Positions 19,212 to 27,004 of a stretch of DNA of 39,460 nucleotides are shown piece by piece. Positions within the stretch are counted from its first letter, which is position 1. Every line of letters starts with the position of its first letter. This stretch comes from Thermoplasmata archaeon (lineage in GTDB: Archaea; Thermoplasmatota; Thermoplasmata; Lutacidiplasmatales; UBA184): NCBI GenBank assembly GCA_021823345.1, contig JAKAOF010000006.1:1-39460 (forward strand), in the 5' to 3' direction. Below the pieces are notes generated by a model. That model made no database searches and was not told the origin of the DNA. It saw only the letters and a list, made by a program, of their open reading frames with translations. The position numbers and the translations under genes are program-made.

Positions 19212-19234
19212 ACGTCTTGGACCGCCTGCCCGAC

Positions 19235-21751
19235 ATGTTCGCCGGGGCTCGCACTCCAACCTTGTGGTCGGCTTACCGGTTGGTTCCTCCCACCACGACC
19301 ACGAGGGAAGAAGCGAGATTTGCGTACCCCAGGCTCTTTGAGACCATCCGGACGTTGCACGCCGTAGGGCAGCCGGTGGCCTTTGATCTCTGCCAGGAGC
19401 GGGGTCGGAGGGGGATCTACCTGACCGTCAACCGGGAGATCGGAGCATCGAATCTTGCCATCTTCGACCGATTCTATCGCCAGTGGCGAAAGGAGGAGGT
19501 GCGCCTCGCCCCCTCGTACTCTGCGCTCCAGGCTCGTGACGTGGGCGCGTTAGTACCTTCGGGACCCCATCGTACGGGACCCTTTCTGCCATTGTCCGAG
19601 CTGGAATGGGGAGCCCCTTGGCGCGGTCTGTTCTCGCTGGGACTCCGGTCCAACATCAATCTGTGGTTGCGGGTGGTGCTAACCCCCCTGGGAACCTCGA
19701 GGTCACGTCCCTTGCCCATCGACCGCACCGAGGGGGCCCGTCCTCCGGAGCACCGGATCGGAAAGAAGGTGCTCGACTCGAGGATGGAAAGGCACCTCGA
19801 CCAGATCTGGACCGTGGGGGGGGTAGTGTCCATTTGGGGTGCGAACGACCGCGCGACCGCTCCACGAGCGGTGGAGGAGACTCGCCAATTGGTGCAACGC
19901 ACGGTCGAGGCGCTCTCGGCCGCGCCCGGGGGATGTGGATTCTCGGTGCACTGGCCCCGGTGGAGAAGATCTCAACGACAGTTGCTCGAGCACTATTTTG
20001 GGGGTCATCTCGGTTTGCGAAGGAAACCGCTTCTTCTTTCCAAAGGGTGGCTCTCGACCGGGGAAGTTGCCTCCTGGTTTCCTCCCTTGTTCTTGCCGAC
20101 TTCCGGGCTGAGATCACCGGTCCCCGTCGTTTCCTCCCTGTGCGTCGGTACCGATGCCGTGGGTAGTCCGGTCGAGATGTACTGGCACCCGCAAGAAGGT
20201 CATCACCTGCTGACGGCCGGGGAGACGGGGATGGGAAAGAGCACGTTGCTGGTTTCCGCAGCACTCTCCACCCCGGATCCTGACGTCGCGATCGTGGTGA
20301 TCGATCCGCGAGGCGACACCGTCCGAAGTTTCATCACCCACCTGGATGAGCGCCGCTTGTCGCGGACCACCTACATCGCTCCCACGCAGTCCCCCGTGGC
20401 GCAGAACGTCCTGTCCATGGAACCTCCTCCGAGCCCGTCGCTCGCGGGGGTTTGGCGTGAACGACATGTGAGCGAACTCGTCAGTGCCTTTCGCAGGGTT
20501 CGTGCCGAACGCTATGGAGAGACGTTCTACTGGGGGCCCCGGATCGAAGAGGTGCTCACGCAGGTACTTCTGTTCCTTAGTCAGATACCTCGTTCGACCC
20601 TAACGGATGCCCTGACGGTCCTCGAGCATCCGGAGACCGCACCGGACCGCGCCCGGCAAGAGGCCCCGGGTAATCCCGAGTTGGCCCAACTGGCCGACCG
20701 AATATCTTCCGAGACCCGGGAGAACTTGGAAGGAGCACGCCGGGTCGTGAGCGAAGTGGTCCTCTTCCCGTCCCTCGCCACCCTCTTGTCGGCCCGGGAT
20801 GCGCACTGGGACTTCTCGCTCGCCCTCGGCCCGGGAAAGATGACCTTGATTTCGCTCGAACAGAATGTGATGAGCACTCGCGGGGCCTCGTACTTGGGTT
20901 CGATCTTTCTCTCCTTGCTCTGGTCAAGGATCCTGAGCCGGGGTCCTTCCCGCAACAAGGTGCTCGTGATCTTGGACGAGGTGCAAGACTATGCGAATGC
21001 ATCACTGGCCGAAATGCTTCGGCAAGGACGGAACTACGGTGTGCACGTGTGGTGCGCGACCCAATCGATCAGTGCCTTGCCGCTCGAGCTGAAAGAGGCG
21101 CTATTGACGAATGCTCGAGACCTGATCCTGTTCCGGGGTTCTCCGAACGACTCACGGCTTGCGCAGGAAAGCTTTGGCCTCCCACCGGAGGACAATCTGA
21201 TGGCGCTTCCAAGGGGCAATGCGTACGCCTTCCTCGGCAAGTCGACTACGGTGGCTCGGGTGCAAATCCGCTCCCCCACGGCACCCTCTCGCTCGTCCGG
21301 GGTGGAGGGGCGGTTGCTTGAGCTCCAGGAGGCGTCCCGTAAGTTTTGGTCGGTATCCGAACACAATAGCGGTCAACCGCAACCGGAGACCCCGGGATTG
21401 AGTGCACCAACCGTCGGAACCGAAGGGGAAGTCCAGCGCATTATCGATGCCCTCATGGTAGGAATGCAATCTTCCTCCGGCGATGGAGACTTCTCTGTGC
21501 CCCTCTCGGTGCTACGACGGATGGCAAATTCGCAGGAATCGCTCCTTCGACGGGTGGGTCGTACTCTTTCGGGTCGAGGGGTACTCATCCGAGTGCTTCG
21601 ACAGAAACCCGAGCATTCCTGGATCCTCTCAAGGTCCGCATTGCTGAACACCCTGCCTGGCCCAATGACCTTGGAGTCACGAACCCGAGCTGGGAACCTC
21701 TGGTCGAGTGCCCAGGAACACTCAACGGGTCGAGATCCGGACGGCGCGTGA
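19235..21751 (+). CDS. VirD4/VirB4/HerA-superfamily ATPase (conjugative coupling-protein-like)
   Basis: Walker A GHHLLTAGETGMGKSTLLVSAAL; IVVIDPRGDTVRSF; Walker B NKVLVILDEVQDYANASLAEMLRQGRNYGVHVWCATQSISALP; ATG 19235 preferred over TTG 19217. Confidence 0.88.
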   Translation: MFAGARTPTLWSAYRLVPPTTTTREEARFAYPRLFETIRTLHAVGQPVAFDLCQERGRRGIYLTVNREIGASNLAIFDRFYRQWRKEEVRLAPSYSALQARDVGALVPSGPHRTGPFLPLSELEWGAPWRGLFSLGLRSNINLWLRVVLTPLGTSRSRPLPIDRTEGARPPEHRIGKKVLDSRMERHLDQIWTVGGVVSIWGANDRATAPRAVEETRQLVQRTVEALSAAPGGCGFSVHWPRWRRSQRQLLEHYFGGHLGLRRKPLLLSKGWLSTGEVASWFPPLFLPTSGLRSPVPVVSSLCVGTDAVGSPVEMYWHPQEGHHLLTAGETGMGKSTLLVSAALSTPDPDVAIVVIDPRGDTVRSFITHLDERRLSRTTYIAPTQSPVAQNVLSMEPPPSPSLAGVWRERHVSELVSAFRRVRAERYGETFYWGPRIEEVLTQVLLFLSQIPRSTLTDALTVLEHPETAPDRARQEAPGNPELAQLADRISSETRENLEGARRVVSEVVLFPSLATLLSARDAHWDFSLALGPGKMTLISLEQNVMSTRGASYLGSIFLSLLWSRILSRGPSRNKVLVILDEVQDYANASLAEMLRQGRNYGVHVWCATQSISALPLELKEALLTNARDLILFRGSPNDSRLAQESFGLPPEDNLMALPRGNAYAFLGKSTTVARVQIRSPTAPSRSSGVEGRLLELQEASRKFWSVSEHNSGQPQPETPGLSAPTVGTEGEVQRIIDALMVGMQSSSGDGDFSVPLSVLRRMANSQESLLRRVGRTLSGRGVLIRVLRQKPEHSWILSRSALLNTLPGPMTLESRTRAGNLWSSAQEHSTGRDPDGA

Positions 21752-21979
21752 ACGGTGGGTTCATGGAATCGTCTTCTGGAAAGGCTCGAAGCCCTGGCAT
21801 CGGATCCTTTCGAGGCGGGGGCTCCATTGTCGTAACGAGGAGTCTGGCCAGGATGGTGGCGGGTCGGCGGCCCCCCATCGGATAGCTTCCAGGTTCCGAG
21901 GACACCCCTTTTCCCCCCGTTTTGATGGTCAGAAATTCGTCCGGAATAATCTTTTAACTCAAATGACCTACTCGTTGCC

Positions 21980-22750
21980 GTGAGCGGAGGGTCTTCTCAG
22001 CTTGACTTGCCTCGATGCCCCACCGGTATCGAAGGGCTAGACAACATACTTGACGGAGGCGTTCCCCGGGGTTCTACCATCCTGCTCACAGGTAGTTGCG
22101 GTACGGGAAAGACAACTCTGGGGTTGGAGTACTTAGTTCGCGGTGCGAATGCAGGCGAAAAGTCGATGTTCTTGTCTGTAACCGAGGCTTCCGACCGGAT
22201 CATTCAGAACCTTACCACGTTCGAGTTCTTTGACAAGAAGATCATTGACGAGGGTAAACTGGTCTTCATCGACGTCCCGATCCTCTACGAGAAGCTCGGG
22301 CTTTCCAAGCAAGAGCTTACGCCGGAAGATATCGATCTGCTCATCACGGCCATCGTGGACCTTGCGAACACCCTCAAGATCCAGCGGCTGGTGCTGGACT
22401 CGGTCACCTCCGTGTGCTTCCGTATCCGGCACGAGGAGAAGATCCGGGACTTCATCCTCAAGCTCGGGAAGTCGCTTTCCGATATCGAGTGCACGACCTT
22501 CCTCGTGAGTGAGATCGGCCCGCAGGCAGATCGCTACTCGCTCTACGGGGTAGAGGAGAACATCGCCGACGGAGTCATTCTTCTGGGCAACAGCCAGCGA
22601 CAAGGAGACCTCCTGCGGACGCTCCAGATCATCAAGATCCGAGGGGCCACGCACAGCCGGGCGCAGTACGTGATCGAGATCACCCCACTTGGAATCTTTC
22701 TCGCCCCGTTCTTGAAAGGGGGCGGGAGGTCAACGATCGGTAATGGTTAG
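21980..22750 (+). CDS. KaiC/RecA-superfamily ATPase with intact P-loop
   Basis: CPTGIEGLDNILDGGVPRGSTILLTGSCGTGKTTLGLEYLVRGANAGEKSMFLSVTE; Walker B IQRLVLDSVTS; GTG start. Confidence 0.93.
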   Translation: MSGGSSQLDLPRCPTGIEGLDNILDGGVPRGSTILLTGSCGTGKTTLGLEYLVRGANAGEKSMFLSVTEASDRIIQNLTTFEFFDKKIIDEGKLVFIDVPILYEKLGLSKQELTPEDIDLLITAIVDLANTLKIQRLVLDSVTSVCFRIRHEEKIRDFILKLGKSLSDIECTTFLVSEIGPQADRYSLYGVEENIADGVILLGNSQRQGDLLRTLQIIKIRGATHSRAQYVIEITPLGIFLAPFLKGGGRSTIGNG

Positions 22751-23342
22751 TTCGACCAACGCATCCCAATTGGCCGAAGGGCTTCGTAGCATGGCCCCGG
22801 GCTCGGCGGTACTTGTCCGCATGAAGGGAGCCACCTACACGGACAGCTACTTCGCGGCGCTCTCGGCCGTTCTGCGAGAATACGCCATGGAAACGAAGGG
22901 TTACGTGGTCTACCTTTCCGTCACCAACCCGGCATCCCTTCTGGTGGACATCCTCTCGTCGGTCGACATCCCGATCCAAGGCGTGTCGTTCATCGATGTG
23001 ACGAGCTACATGATGGTCGACAAGGCCAAACGGGCCGCCAACACCACCTACGTGGAGAGCCCGACCATGCTCGAGACGATTATGCTCCGCGTCGAGTACC
23101 TGCTACGCCGGAGCCCCAACGAACGGAGGATCGTCGTCCTGGACTCCATCAGTTCGCTCGCCATCCACAACAACAGCCACATCCTGCAGGAATTCCTCCA
23201 CATCCTGGTGAACAAGCTCAAGTCGATGGGAGCCGTCACGGTCCTGCTCACCGTGATCGAGGAGACCGCGCCCGAGCTCTCGAACGTGCTTTCCCTCATC
23301 TCCGATGCGAACGTGACGCTCGAGGGCGGTGGCCAGTCGTGA
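22743..23342 (+). CDS. KaiC/RecA-fold-like protein lacking a recognisable Walker A
   Basis: P-loop position reads GSAVLVRMKGATYTDSYF; Walker B-like RRIVVLDSISSLAIHNN retained; overlaps both neighbours. Confidence 0.75.
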   Translation: MVSSTNASQLAEGLRSMAPGSAVLVRMKGATYTDSYFAALSAVLREYAMETKGYVVYLSVTNPASLLVDILSSVDIPIQGVSFIDVTSYMMVDKAKRAANTTYVESPTMLETIMLRVEYLLRRSPNERRIVVLDSISSLAIHNNSHILQEFLHILVNKLKSMGAVTVLLTVIEETAPELSNVLSLISDANVTLEGGGQS

Positions 23343-24127
23343 CGGAAAAGGCGGTCAAGGAGGCGATCTTCGGGATCCCCGAGGTCGACGATGAACTTGG
23401 AGGCGTCCTTCCCAAAGGCTGGGCGGGCATCGTCTCCGGAGCCCCCGGCAGCGGAATTGAGCTCCTCGCGAAGCAGTTCGCCAGCTTTGCCCCCGACCGG
23501 GTACCCGTCTACTACTATACCACCATGGAACGCACGGAGGACGTCCTTGGCGCCCTGCGGAACTTCGGGTGGAAGGAGAATCTGAACCTGGTGAACATCC
23601 TGGAAGAGTACTACGACCAGGTCCTTTCCCGTAACCTCGAGGTCAGCCGATTCCGTGAGATGGGGATCTCTCCGGAAGATATCTCACAGTTCACCATGAA
23701 AGGGATCGAGGGGCGGCGGGTCAACTTCGTGACCCGGATGATCAATGACATCGCCACCCTGGACAAGCCGTTCCGCCTGGTGGTGGACTCCCTGGATTTT
23801 TTCTTGGAACAGGCCGAGCCGAGTGATGTCATCTCGATGGTGCGTCAGATCCGCTATCGCGCCCAGCGGGTCGGGGGCCGGGCGCTCATGACGCTCACTC
23901 CCGAGGTCCACGATAACCGCGTCACGGGTACGCTCGGTACGATCGCCGATGTGCTCCTCAACCTCGAGGTCGAGGAACGTGCGACGAAGTTCCACTACGC
24001 CATCGCGATCGAGAAGGTCCGCAATCATCCGGAGTCGACCGGTCTCATTCGAGTGAACGTCGGAGGGTCCGGGATCGCGAGCGCCGGCACGGAAGATAAG
24101 GACAAGAGCCGGTTCTCCGCGGTATAG
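23339..24127 (+). CDS. KaiC/RecA-superfamily protein with degenerate Walker A (GAPGSGIE)
   Basis: FGIPEVDDELGGVLPKGWAGIVSGAPGSGIELLAKQFA...FRLVVDSLDFFLE. Confidence 0.88.
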   Translation: MTEKAVKEAIFGIPEVDDELGGVLPKGWAGIVSGAPGSGIELLAKQFASFAPDRVPVYYYTTMERTEDVLGALRNFGWKENLNLVNILEEYYDQVLSRNLEVSRFREMGISPEDISQFTMKGIEGRRVNFVTRMINDIATLDKPFRLVVDSLDFFLEQAEPSDVISMVRQIRYRAQRVGGRALMTLTPEVHDNRVTGTLGTIADVLLNLEVEERATKFHYAIAIEKVRNHPESTGLIRVNVGGSGIASAGTEDKDKSRFSAV

Positions 24128-24145: not shown

Positions 24146-27004
24146 TCACGGGTCGGGGGATTTCTTTGGTTCAGGTTCCACTGGCTTGGCCTTGGGAGGG
24201 GTAGGCGACATCACCCGGCTGAACATCCGATGGATGTCCTCGGGACGAGGTGCCGTCGTGGTGGATCGGCCGGCAGAGGTATCCGAGCGACCGGCCCCGG
24301 CCCGGATGTCGCTCACGAACGTCTCGAACTCCTGAAGGACCTCGGTAATGGTCGCGTGGTCATAGCCCCGCGCTTCGAGGGTGTGGAGCGAGTTCCGGAC
24401 AAGCTGGGCATAGGTCATCAGCTCGTCACCGGCTTCTTCGGACGATTGCAACCGCCCCGTGTCCGCCGCAGTCGCCGTGGCTTCCACGTCTCGGACCACG
24501 GCCTCCATTCCGGCCTTCCCGAGATAGCTTTCGAGGAACCCTTTAAAGAGCGTGAGCGACCACTGGAGCCCCGCAAGTTCCCGGTGCGGGGTCGTGTCGA
24601 CCGCGGTCCGGGCGAGGGTCTCCAGCACCCCGCGGACCCGCACCACGTAGTCGATCAATGGTTCCCCGGGATTCCAGGGAACGTTCACATCGGTCGACCA
24701 ACGCCGGCTCGTCTCCTCGAGCATGCGGGTAAGGCTCGTCATCTGCTTGTCGCTCAGGCCGCGGTGGGACTCCATGAGCGAGGAGGAGACCGCATTCGCC
24801 ATGGCCAGCGAAGAGGGCGGGGTGGCGCCTTCGGGGTGTTCGGACTGGGCCCGATGCACATACTCGGGGGCCGGTTCGTTCTGCTTTCGAAGGACTCCCG
24901 TGGCGTACCCTGCCCGGAACGCGGAGGCTTCCCACTCAACGATGTTCATCTCGGATTCGGGGGTAGAGGGCGCCGGGACAGGGGTAGGTTCTCGCGGGGG
25001 CGCTGCGACTTGCGTGGCGGGCCCCGTAACGGTGGGTACTGGCGTAGGGGGGAGCTCTTTCGGAACGGGAGTGGTGACTCCCGGGGATGGCGGGGAGGGA
25101 GGGCGGTTCAAGACCCCATCGAACAAATGGTTCACCCGCTCCATGCCTTGGTGCGGGGGGATCGCTGCGGGGAGGGCACCCCCATGGGCCGGATCTTCCG
25201 TCCCCTTGAGGTCCGTCAGGAGAACATCGAACTCGTGAAGGATGCGGTCGACCTCTTCCCGGCTCAATGTAGTCGGAGCGAGAGCGGCCAACGCTCGGCG
25301 CACGAGGTTGGCGTAGGTCGAAAGTTCATCGTGTTCTCCCTCCATTCCCACGGGGGCCAGCATTCCGCTGGCGGCCTGCTCTGCGATGGTGTCGACCAAT
25401 TGGACCGTTCGTTGCTTCCCGATCGAGCTCTCCAGAAAGCCTCGGAAAAGAGCCAGCGCCCACTGCAGTCCCGCGGTAGGGTTCCGTTGGGCGACCGGTC
25501 CGCCCATGGCGGTACGTTCCAGTACCCCATACGTGCTCTCTGCGCGCTTCAGATAGTCGTCAAGTGACTCTCCGGAGTTCCGGGAGACCTTCAGAAGTCT
25601 CTCCAGACGCTTGGTCTCGGATTCGAGGGATCTCAAGAAGTCGGCAAACACCCGATCCCCTAACTGGGCATTCGACTCCGACACTGTCCGGGTCAGGGCC
25701 GCCGAAAGTACCGCCGGTTCCGGTACCTTCCCCCCCAATCGAGCCGATTCTAATGCCCCACGAAGGGCGTAATCCCTTCCGGATTCTCCCGCCTTCCGGG
25801 TAGCGCCGGTGGTCAGTGCGGTCCGGAAAGCCGATACTTCCCAAGGGGTCAGTCCGTTCTTGGGAGACAGGAACTCTAACCCGGCATTCGAGGTGACCGA
25901 GACCGGTGCCTTCCGGTCCAACCCTGTGGTGACGGGGATGGCGGGGGGCAACGAGGTCGGGGCAGTGGCAGGAGCTTGCCGGGAAGGCATGTCACTCGCC
26001 ACGGGCCGAACGGCTTCGGTCGAAGGACTCTCGGTCCGACGCTTGGGCACGGCGGTGGTCTCCGCAGACCGCGAGGAGGGGGGCTTCTGGGATAGCGCGA
26101 TATGGAGGGCTTCGAGCTTGGCCCCCGTTGAGTCCGTGTACTGAGCAATGTCCTTGAGGGTGGGTCGCCCCGTCGAGATCTTGACATCGTGGGCCATGGT
26201 AGCTCCGATGAGCTCCTTGTCGGATACCTTGGAAAGTAGCACTTTGAGATTCCGCAATTGCGACTGGGCGTCCACCCACTTGCTCCGTTCTAGTACGATG
26301 TAATCGGGCGTGCTCTCGGGGATGAGGTCCTCTTCATCCTCCGGGACGAAGGCCGCCACGGTGCCGCCGACGGTTGCGATGCCCCCCACCAACAGGAAGA
26401 CGATCCAGAGCGGGTAGTAGCGTCCCCCGATGTGGGCATAGCTCCCCCAAAAGAGGATGGAGATGACCATTGCCGCCACTCCAAAGAAGAGCAGGGGCGC
26501 GCTCGACTCGAATCCCTCTATGATTTCTTGGCCCCGGCTCTTCGCTACGCGGGAGGGACGATCACGAGGGGTCTCTCTCGGGAAGGTCTGGCTCGACGGA
26601 GTCCGTCCTTTCGCTGGCTGGATGCGAGGGGCAGGTTGGTGCCGGAACAGGGGGAGGAACCACAGTACGACCCCCAGCAGCAGGAACGCACCGATCGGCA
26701 CAATGAGCGCTCCCCAGACGATCTGGGGGTCCGTCACCACGAGCGAGATGCCCAAGATCAGGAGAATGGCGGCGGCGGAGGCGAGGAAGAGGAATAGTAA
26801 GGCCGGACGATAGGTCGCCGTAGGTCTCAAGCTCCGACCCCGGGTACGAACGGTACGCTCTCGGAACGAGGGCGGTCGACGAGGGGTAGGGGGTCGGGAT
26901 CTTGCTTTCGGGGCGGGCGTGGCGGAAGAAGGCTTCCACTCTCGGAGGGGGGGACGTTTCACTGCTGGCGCCCTAGGTGAGTGAGGCGGCATCCGCCTAT
27001 ACAA
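24146..27004 (-). CDS. Large multi-domain membrane protein with internal tandem duplication
   Basis: TM segments PALLFLFLASAAAILLILGISLV, IVWGALIVPIGAFLLLGVVLWFL, LLFFGVAAMVISILFWGSYA, LWIVFLLVGGIATVGGTVAAFV; Pro/Thr-rich linkers; two homologous ~215-aa modules. Confidence 0.85.
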   Translation of the reverse strand: MYRRMPPHSPRAPAVKRPPLREWKPSSATPAPKARSRPPTPRRPPSFRERTVRTRGRSLRPTATYRPALLFLFLASAAAILLILGISLVVTDPQIVWGALIVPIGAFLLLGVVLWFLPLFRHQPAPRIQPAKGRTPSSQTFPRETPRDRPSRVAKSRGQEIIEGFESSAPLLFFGVAAMVISILFWGSYAHIGGRYYPLWIVFLLVGGIATVGGTVAAFVPEDEEDLIPESTPDYIVLERSKWVDAQSQLRNLKVLLSKVSDKELIGATMAHDVKISTGRPTLKDIAQYTDSTGAKLEALHIALSQKPPSSRSAETTAVPKRRTESPSTEAVRPVASDMPSRQAPATAPTSLPPAIPVTTGLDRKAPVSVTSNAGLEFLSPKNGLTPWEVSAFRTALTTGATRKAGESGRDYALRGALESARLGGKVPEPAVLSAALTRTVSESNAQLGDRVFADFLRSLESETKRLERLLKVSRNSGESLDDYLKRAESTYGVLERTAMGGPVAQRNPTAGLQWALALFRGFLESSIGKQRTVQLVDTIAEQAASGMLAPVGMEGEHDELSTYANLVRRALAALAPTTLSREEVDRILHEFDVLLTDLKGTEDPAHGGALPAAIPPHQGMERVNHLFDGVLNRPPSPPSPGVTTPVPKELPPTPVPTVTGPATQVAAPPREPTPVPAPSTPESEMNIVEWEASAFRAGYATGVLRKQNEPAPEYVHRAQSEHPEGATPPSSLAMANAVSSSLMESHRGLSDKQMTSLTRMLEETSRRWSTDVNVPWNPGEPLIDYVVRVRGVLETLARTAVDTTPHRELAGLQWSLTLFKGFLESYLGKAGMEAVVRDVEATATAADTGRLQSSEEAGDELMTYAQLVRNSLHTLEARGYDHATITEVLQEFETFVSDIRAGAGRSDTSAGRSTTTAPRPEDIHRMFSRVMSPTPPKAKPVEPEPKKSPDP
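24300..24945 (-). repeat. Internal protein repeat B of the large membrane protein
   Basis: WEASAFRAGYATGVLRKQNEP...AGLQWSLTLFKGFLESYLGKA...DELMTYAQLVRNSLHTL...EVLQEFETFVSDIRA. Confidence 0.85.
25203..25852 (-). repeat. Internal protein repeat A of the large membrane protein
   Basis: WEVSAFRTALTTGATRKAGES...AGLQWALALFRGFLESSIGKQ...DELSTYANLVRRALAAL...RILHEFDVLLTDLKG. Confidence 0.85.

Follow-up and report, generated by a model that had tools for sequence, protein, structure and literature searches.

An operon that joins an intact KaiC-like ATPase to P-loop-less relatives in Thermoplasmatota, and its possible link to type IV pili

The window (the whole 39,460-nucleotide stretch of DNA that was analysed) contains, at positions 21980–24127, three overlapping genes that encode one intact KaiC-like ATPase (A) and two P-loop-less relatives (B and C). 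Rather than a product of gene decay, this trio is probably a regulator built of mixed subunits. Our favoured reading is a hetero-oligomeric KaiC module in which A would be the catalytic subunit, accompanied by one or two dead subunits, and which would regulate type IV pili much as ArlH does the archaellum. We infer the heteromer and its function, and give this reading a probability of about 0.48, i.e. slightly below even odds. The pattern of one active and two inactive proteins recurs in 85 loci, far beyond what chance would produce.

All three genes are encoded on the + strand; A and B overlap by 8 bp, and B and C by 4 bp (Table 1). The earlier note, which had placed three overlapping intact reading frames at these coordinates, is right on this point, and the motifs that it quoted for each protein are all present. 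Its description of the proteins as similarly sized does not hold, as B is approximately 60 aa shorter than A and C: the Walker B Asp is separated from the C-terminus by 65 residues in B, compared with 114 in A and 101 in C, and B ends ahead of the C-terminal part that holds the trans-acting residues in KaiC. The loop of B at the place of the P-loop is four residues shorter in most distant orthologues. The genome is G+C-rich, with many long overlapping ORFs, and most of those around the trio (21708–21983 and long antisense frames) are probably spurious.

Table 1. Genes and sequence elements of the trio in the window, with the loci and families in which a pilin gene adjoins the operon
Feature	Position	Strand	Remarks
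Gene A, KaiC-like ATPase, 256 aa	21980..22750	+	GTG start; sole intact P-loop among the three; PF06745 E-value 5.5e-55
A Walker A, GSCGTGKTT, residues 38-46	22091..22117	+	G38 and G41-T45 invariant (40/40)
A Walker B, RLVLDS, residues 136-141	22385..22402	+	D140 and S141 invariant (40/40)
A trans-acting K219-x-R221 (then G)	22634..22642	+	aligns with KLRG of KaiC CI; invariant (40/40)
Gene B, P-loop-less KaiC-fold protein (predicted), 199 aa	22743..23342	+	without C-terminal K-x-R; PF06745 E-value 3.8e-6; model pLDDT 90.5
B GSAVLVRMKGATYTDSY, residues 20-36	22800..22850	+	strand and helix start at the place of the P-loop; Y36 invariant
B Walker-B-like RRIVVLDS, residues 128-135	23124..23147	+	within RRIVVLDSISS; D134 invariant (39/39)
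Gene C, KaiC-fold protein (predicted), 262 aa	23339..24127	+	degenerate P-loop, K-x-R kept; PF06745 E-value 2e-11; model pLDDT 89.9
C degenerate Walker A, GAPGSGIE, residues 34-41	23438..23461	+	consensus G.PGSG[TIM]E; GK[TS] here in 0/71
C Walker-B-like RLVVDS, residues 146-151	23774..23791	+	R146 and S151 invariant; D150 in 30/33
C K226-x-R228-N229	24014..24025	+	equivalent to the trans-acting K-x-R of KaiC (orthologue aligned to KaiC CII); K 66/67, R or K 62/67
Pilin-adjacent loci			L048, L051, L055, L057, L059, L061, L063, L064, L066, L067
Further pilin-adjacent loci			L189, L190, L191, L193, L196, L197, L208
Pilin-adjacent GTDB families			f5, f9, f14, f16, f18, f20, f21, f23, f24, f43, f46

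A is an unambiguous member of the KaiC family, both by its match to the Pfam KaiC profile (PF06745, 186.7 bits) and by direct sequence similarity to KaiC in the PDB (5e-51). The same profile detects C with 44.1 bits and B with 26.9 bits, the latter barely above the curated cut-off of 26.6. As the B profile matches no PDB sequence, a fold comparison was needed: AlphaFold2 monomer models were built from alignments of 39 orthologues for B and 33 for C, and Foldseek searches of the PDB returned KaiC, FlaH/ArlH and the archaeal KaiC-like protein PH0284 for both (best E-value 2.2e-8 for B and 5.4e-13 for C). All three proteins are thus assigned the KaiC/RecA fold, A by its family match and B and C by prediction and structural comparison, in line with the earlier note; unrelated folds were not seen. 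Each of them contains one KaiC domain, not a tandem CI-CII arrangement. B and C are members of the KaiC superfamily by predicted fold and descent, predicted not to be active ATPases, and a functional Walker A motif is predicted for A only. Matches to more specific families are weak. The NCBIfam ArlH family (cut-off 215 bits) is the best NCBIfam match of C (48.9 bits, 6.6e-13) and is also matched by A (35.4 bits), but all three proteins remain far below that cut-off, and B and C show weak matches to DUF7504, DUF7090 or DUF835. PF23365 (DUF7090) was rejected as a name for B: it scores under the cut-off, and the stronger matches are other, mostly longer proteins.

The distribution of catalytic elements was surveyed at 85 loci, with 83 A, 85 B and 71 C proteins scored for the pattern GxxxxGK[TS]. 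The P-loop was found at the right place in 81/83 A proteins and in none of the B (0/85) or C (0/71) proteins. The two A proteins without it are one sequence truncated by a contig end and one relic, found in genome G208 (family f8; L206, 447–1686) as part of an A-B pair at a locus that lacks C. Its P-loop is ruined (GGMASGRSS), and this is the only sign of decay that we have seen. A single match to the pattern in C of locus L072 (GIVSSGKS) lies at the C-terminus of the protein; it was discarded and is read as chance. One other C protein (L178, 5520–6302, genome G083) carries GAGKE in the degenerate loop and is the sole C with a Lys there, still without Thr/Ser. In KaiC structures the residues of the K-x-R element touch the ATP of the neighbouring subunit. 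This element is kept in A and C and absent from B. Taken together, the two distributions indicate that A is complete, that C possesses only the trans half of the nucleotide site, and that B has neither. B does have an invariant core of its own, composed of E105-S106, L110-E111, D134, H142-N143, E150 and H153.

B is present, essentially in single copy, in 66 of 81 relatives, and a search of the same 81 genomes for A found it in the same 66 and missed it in the same 15, two of which have weak paralogues only. Every relative that carries a name is a metagenome assembly of Thermoplasmata or Euryarchaeota; Candidatus Lutacidiplasma silvani is one of them. C was detected in 61 of the 66 genomes with A and B; two of the misses are at contig edges and the remaining three make up all of family f9, in which pilins directly follow B. 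Families f21, f23, f24 and f43 also have no C at the locus and a pilin gene directly after B. With five families having no C at the locus, A and B must be able to work without it, at least there. The window's own family accounts for eight of the losses, of which seven fall in genus g4, in genomes with completeness up to 97%, and all three genes were lost jointly. Across the phylum sample the B profile detects 149 of 293 genomes. The A-B-C order is the same in regions from other classes, with a median gap of 0 bp between A and B and of -4 bp between B and C; the conservation of the trio's synteny, raised in the earlier note, thus extends across the phylum, though in the five families mentioned above the locus lacks C. 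The degenerate copies show low dN/dS (NG86) in comparison with the nearest genomes (0.06–0.07 for B and 0.03 for C) and in the closest pair, G001–G002 (0.04 for B and 0.01 for C), while larger comparisons are unreliable because dS is near or above 1 in most pairs. B and C are ancient and under purifying selection. The view of the earlier note that the second and third genes are not pseudogenes is well founded: their orthologues have intact frames, low dN/dS and conserved degenerate motifs, and no random decay is seen. In family f37 there is also a second, divergent cluster B-B'-A' (L198, 4928–9705; L200, 4425–15128) beside a pilin-like gene (AVSEVIGAILM). Two of its genes are P-loop-less and the third is KaiC-like and has GKT, which looks like a duplication of the active/inactive scheme.

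A type IV pilin gene (N-terminus AVSPVIATILMVAITVVLAAVLYVMV) lies directly 3' of the operon and on the same strand in 17 loci, which represent 11 GTDB families from different classes (Table 1). Because these genomes have only 1–5 Pilin_N matches each, such adjacency would be expected by chance in approximately 0.2% of cases per genome, and several have roughly half of all their pilin matches, or more, beside the trio. In the phylum sample Pilin_N was found in 141/149 genomes with B, compared with 70/144 other genomes (Fisher p 6e-20, not corrected for phylogeny); families f19 and f26 possess pilins without B. In genus g4, trio-less genomes have 0.7 pilins versus 2.8 in the others, a shortfall that is partly due to general reduction, as the trio-less genomes are also smaller and have fewer KaiC genes. 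Clustering of the neighbouring genes revealed no recurrent class-level neighbour besides pilins. Approximately 18 sampled families have the operon without an adjoining pilin and with varied neighbours. The window's own family likewise has no pilin beside the trio; instead, a gene for an 844-aa HerA/TraD/VirD4-like ATPase (19217–21751, + strand; FtsK_SpoIIIE 1.3e-5, TraG-D_C 3e-5) is found upstream. In the genomes of this family that were read it immediately precedes the trio, several of them having a gap of some tens of bp, and it was not seen beside the trio outside the family. The arlI and arlJ genes are not at the trio locus in this family, and matches to the pilus-type ATPase and platform in the window's own genome are located on contigs C36 and C15. 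On the other side of the trio the window encodes a 952-aa protein (24146–27004, - strand) without a Pfam or NCBIfam match, seen only in the window's genus, with hydrophobic N-terminal segments and two repeats around LQW(A/S)L(A/T)LF(R/K)GFLES.

A physical A-B(-C) complex explains these data most economically, given how the catalytic parts are split, that A and B are inherited all or nothing and that the genes overlap. From these findings we infer a physical heteromer, the ring geometry, trans-activation by C and a pilus-regulating function. A hetero-oligomeric ring of catalytic and structural or sensory subunits was already suggested in the earlier note, which did not include the link to pilins. 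A would be the only subunit to bind and hydrolyse ATP. C would not bind ATP via a P-loop, but its K-x-R could reach into the nucleotide site of a neighbour. We place C next to an A subunit, where it could complete or gate the active site of A; a K-x-R element in a protein that has no P-loop itself would otherwise be difficult to understand. B may serve as a structural cap or a docking subunit, e.g. for a sensor or a target. The linkage to pilins suggests that the module most likely regulates type IV (adhesive) pili or helps to assemble them, comparable to what ArlH does for the archaellum motor. This is in line with the reported link between KaiC families and archaeal T4P loci (PMC4858521) and with ArlH as an ATP-binding regulator in the archaellum (PMC8978795). 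The most specific version of this proposal is a new KaiC architecture, i.e. a mixed ring with A catalytic, C giving its K-x-R to A, and B a dead cap or docking subunit, which would be the ArlH equivalent of adhesive pili across Thermoplasmatota; as a whole it is doubtful, and we put it forward tentatively.

The trio could alternatively be a general-purpose heteromeric KaiC/iKaiC signalling hub, for which the adjacency to pilins would be one output among others or a side effect of the clustering of surface genes. The resemblance of B to the P-loop-less families DUF7090, DUF7504 and DUF835, the last of which has been described as an inactivated KaiC domain of response regulators (PMC5847659), speaks for such a hub, as do the varied neighbours in the ~18 sampled families without pilin adjacency. 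However, pilins are the sole recurrent neighbour across distant families, and Pilin_N is absent from just 8 of the 149 genomes with B, so that we regard a general hub as somewhat unlikely, although a serious candidate. It is less probable still that A acts as a homo-oligomer, with B and C as separate adaptors or scaffolds, connected to it by no more than a common operon and pathway. With its full set of cis and trans residues A could form a homohexamer alone, and C is dispensable in some families; yet the strict co-inheritance of A and B from overlapping genes argues against such independence, and the K-x-R that C keeps without its own P-loop is difficult to account for outside a shared ring.

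Two further explanations are very improbable. A relationship to Elongator, with the trio as an archaeal counterpart of the mixed RecA-fold ring Elp456 that acts on tRNA, is suggested by matches of 17/33 C members to PAXNEB/Elp4 (best 1.3e-11) and of 20/39 B members to Iki1/Elp5 (best 5.9e-5). The PAXNEB match of C must be considered generic, because the ordinary KaiC protein A matches PAXNEB as often (36/40), and the Iki1 match of B is weak; moreover, no Elp4-6 chain appears among the top 50 Foldseek hits of either model (B or C), and it is to pilins, not to tRNA genes, that the operon is linked. Elp456 homology was accordingly rejected for want of a specific match. That B and C are pseudogenes, i.e. 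decaying duplicates of A, is hardly credible at all. The loss of the P-loop from both, and the ruined A of the relic without C described above, are what decay would leave behind, but intact frames in distant families, invariant residues and dN/dS of 0.03–0.07 against the nearest relatives refute it.

KaiC-like ATPases are abundant in archaea, as are inactivated KaiC domains, and they have been proposed to form signalling hubs. What appears to be new here is a widespread, single-copy operon of active and inactive KaiC proteins, with the catalytic parts spread over the subunits and with a linkage to pilins. In the literature searched, to which Makarova 2017 (mBio e01959-17, on KaiC hubs) did not belong, no description of a conserved trio was found. 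The second component of archaeal KaiC hubs is unknown in most cases (PMC4858521). A co-inherited active/inactive set with retained trans residues offers a concrete and testable division of labour in a KaiC ring, and the linkage to pilins suggests a readout (piliation, adhesion) and a module that may be to the adhesive pili of archaea what ArlH is to the archaellum.

Among the known systems, Elongator Elp456 also consists of three RecA-fold paralogues, and its heterohexamer is a precedent for a mixed ring of such paralogues without the P-loop consensus (PMC11050213). Unlike the trio, it has no intact A-like subunit; its sequence links to the trio are generic or weak, and it was not recovered by the fold search. 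In the case of cyanobacterial KaiC, A is a close relative of its domains, the K-x-R of the ring interface is kept, and mixed KaiC complexes, i.e. hetero-oligomers of KaiC1 and KaiC3, have been reported (PMC6989803), but KaiC has the CI-CII architecture, whereas the trio proteins are single-domain and two of the partners are P-loop-less. No gene resembling KaiA or KaiB came to notice next to the trio. Inactivated KaiC domains (iKaiC) and inactive KaiC partners in archaea are a published concept (PMC5847659), and B and C fit the description of iKaiC partners: KaiC fold, loss of the ATPase motif and linkage to an active KaiC. Like DUF835, DUF7504, DUF7090 and MEDS, B and C are dead KaiC domains beside active ones; in contrast to these, they are stand-alone, single-copy proteins whose place in one operon with their cognate active KaiC is fixed across the phylum, and C keeps the trans-acting residues. 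ArlH is KaiC-like and regulates ArlI, the motor ATPase of the archaellum. ArlH/FlaH resembles the trio in its KaiC fold, in being the best NCBIfam match of C and in working with a type IV-pilus-like machine. It differs in being a single protein of the arl operon, while the trio comprises up to three proteins, two of them P-loop-less, encoded beside pilins or alone.
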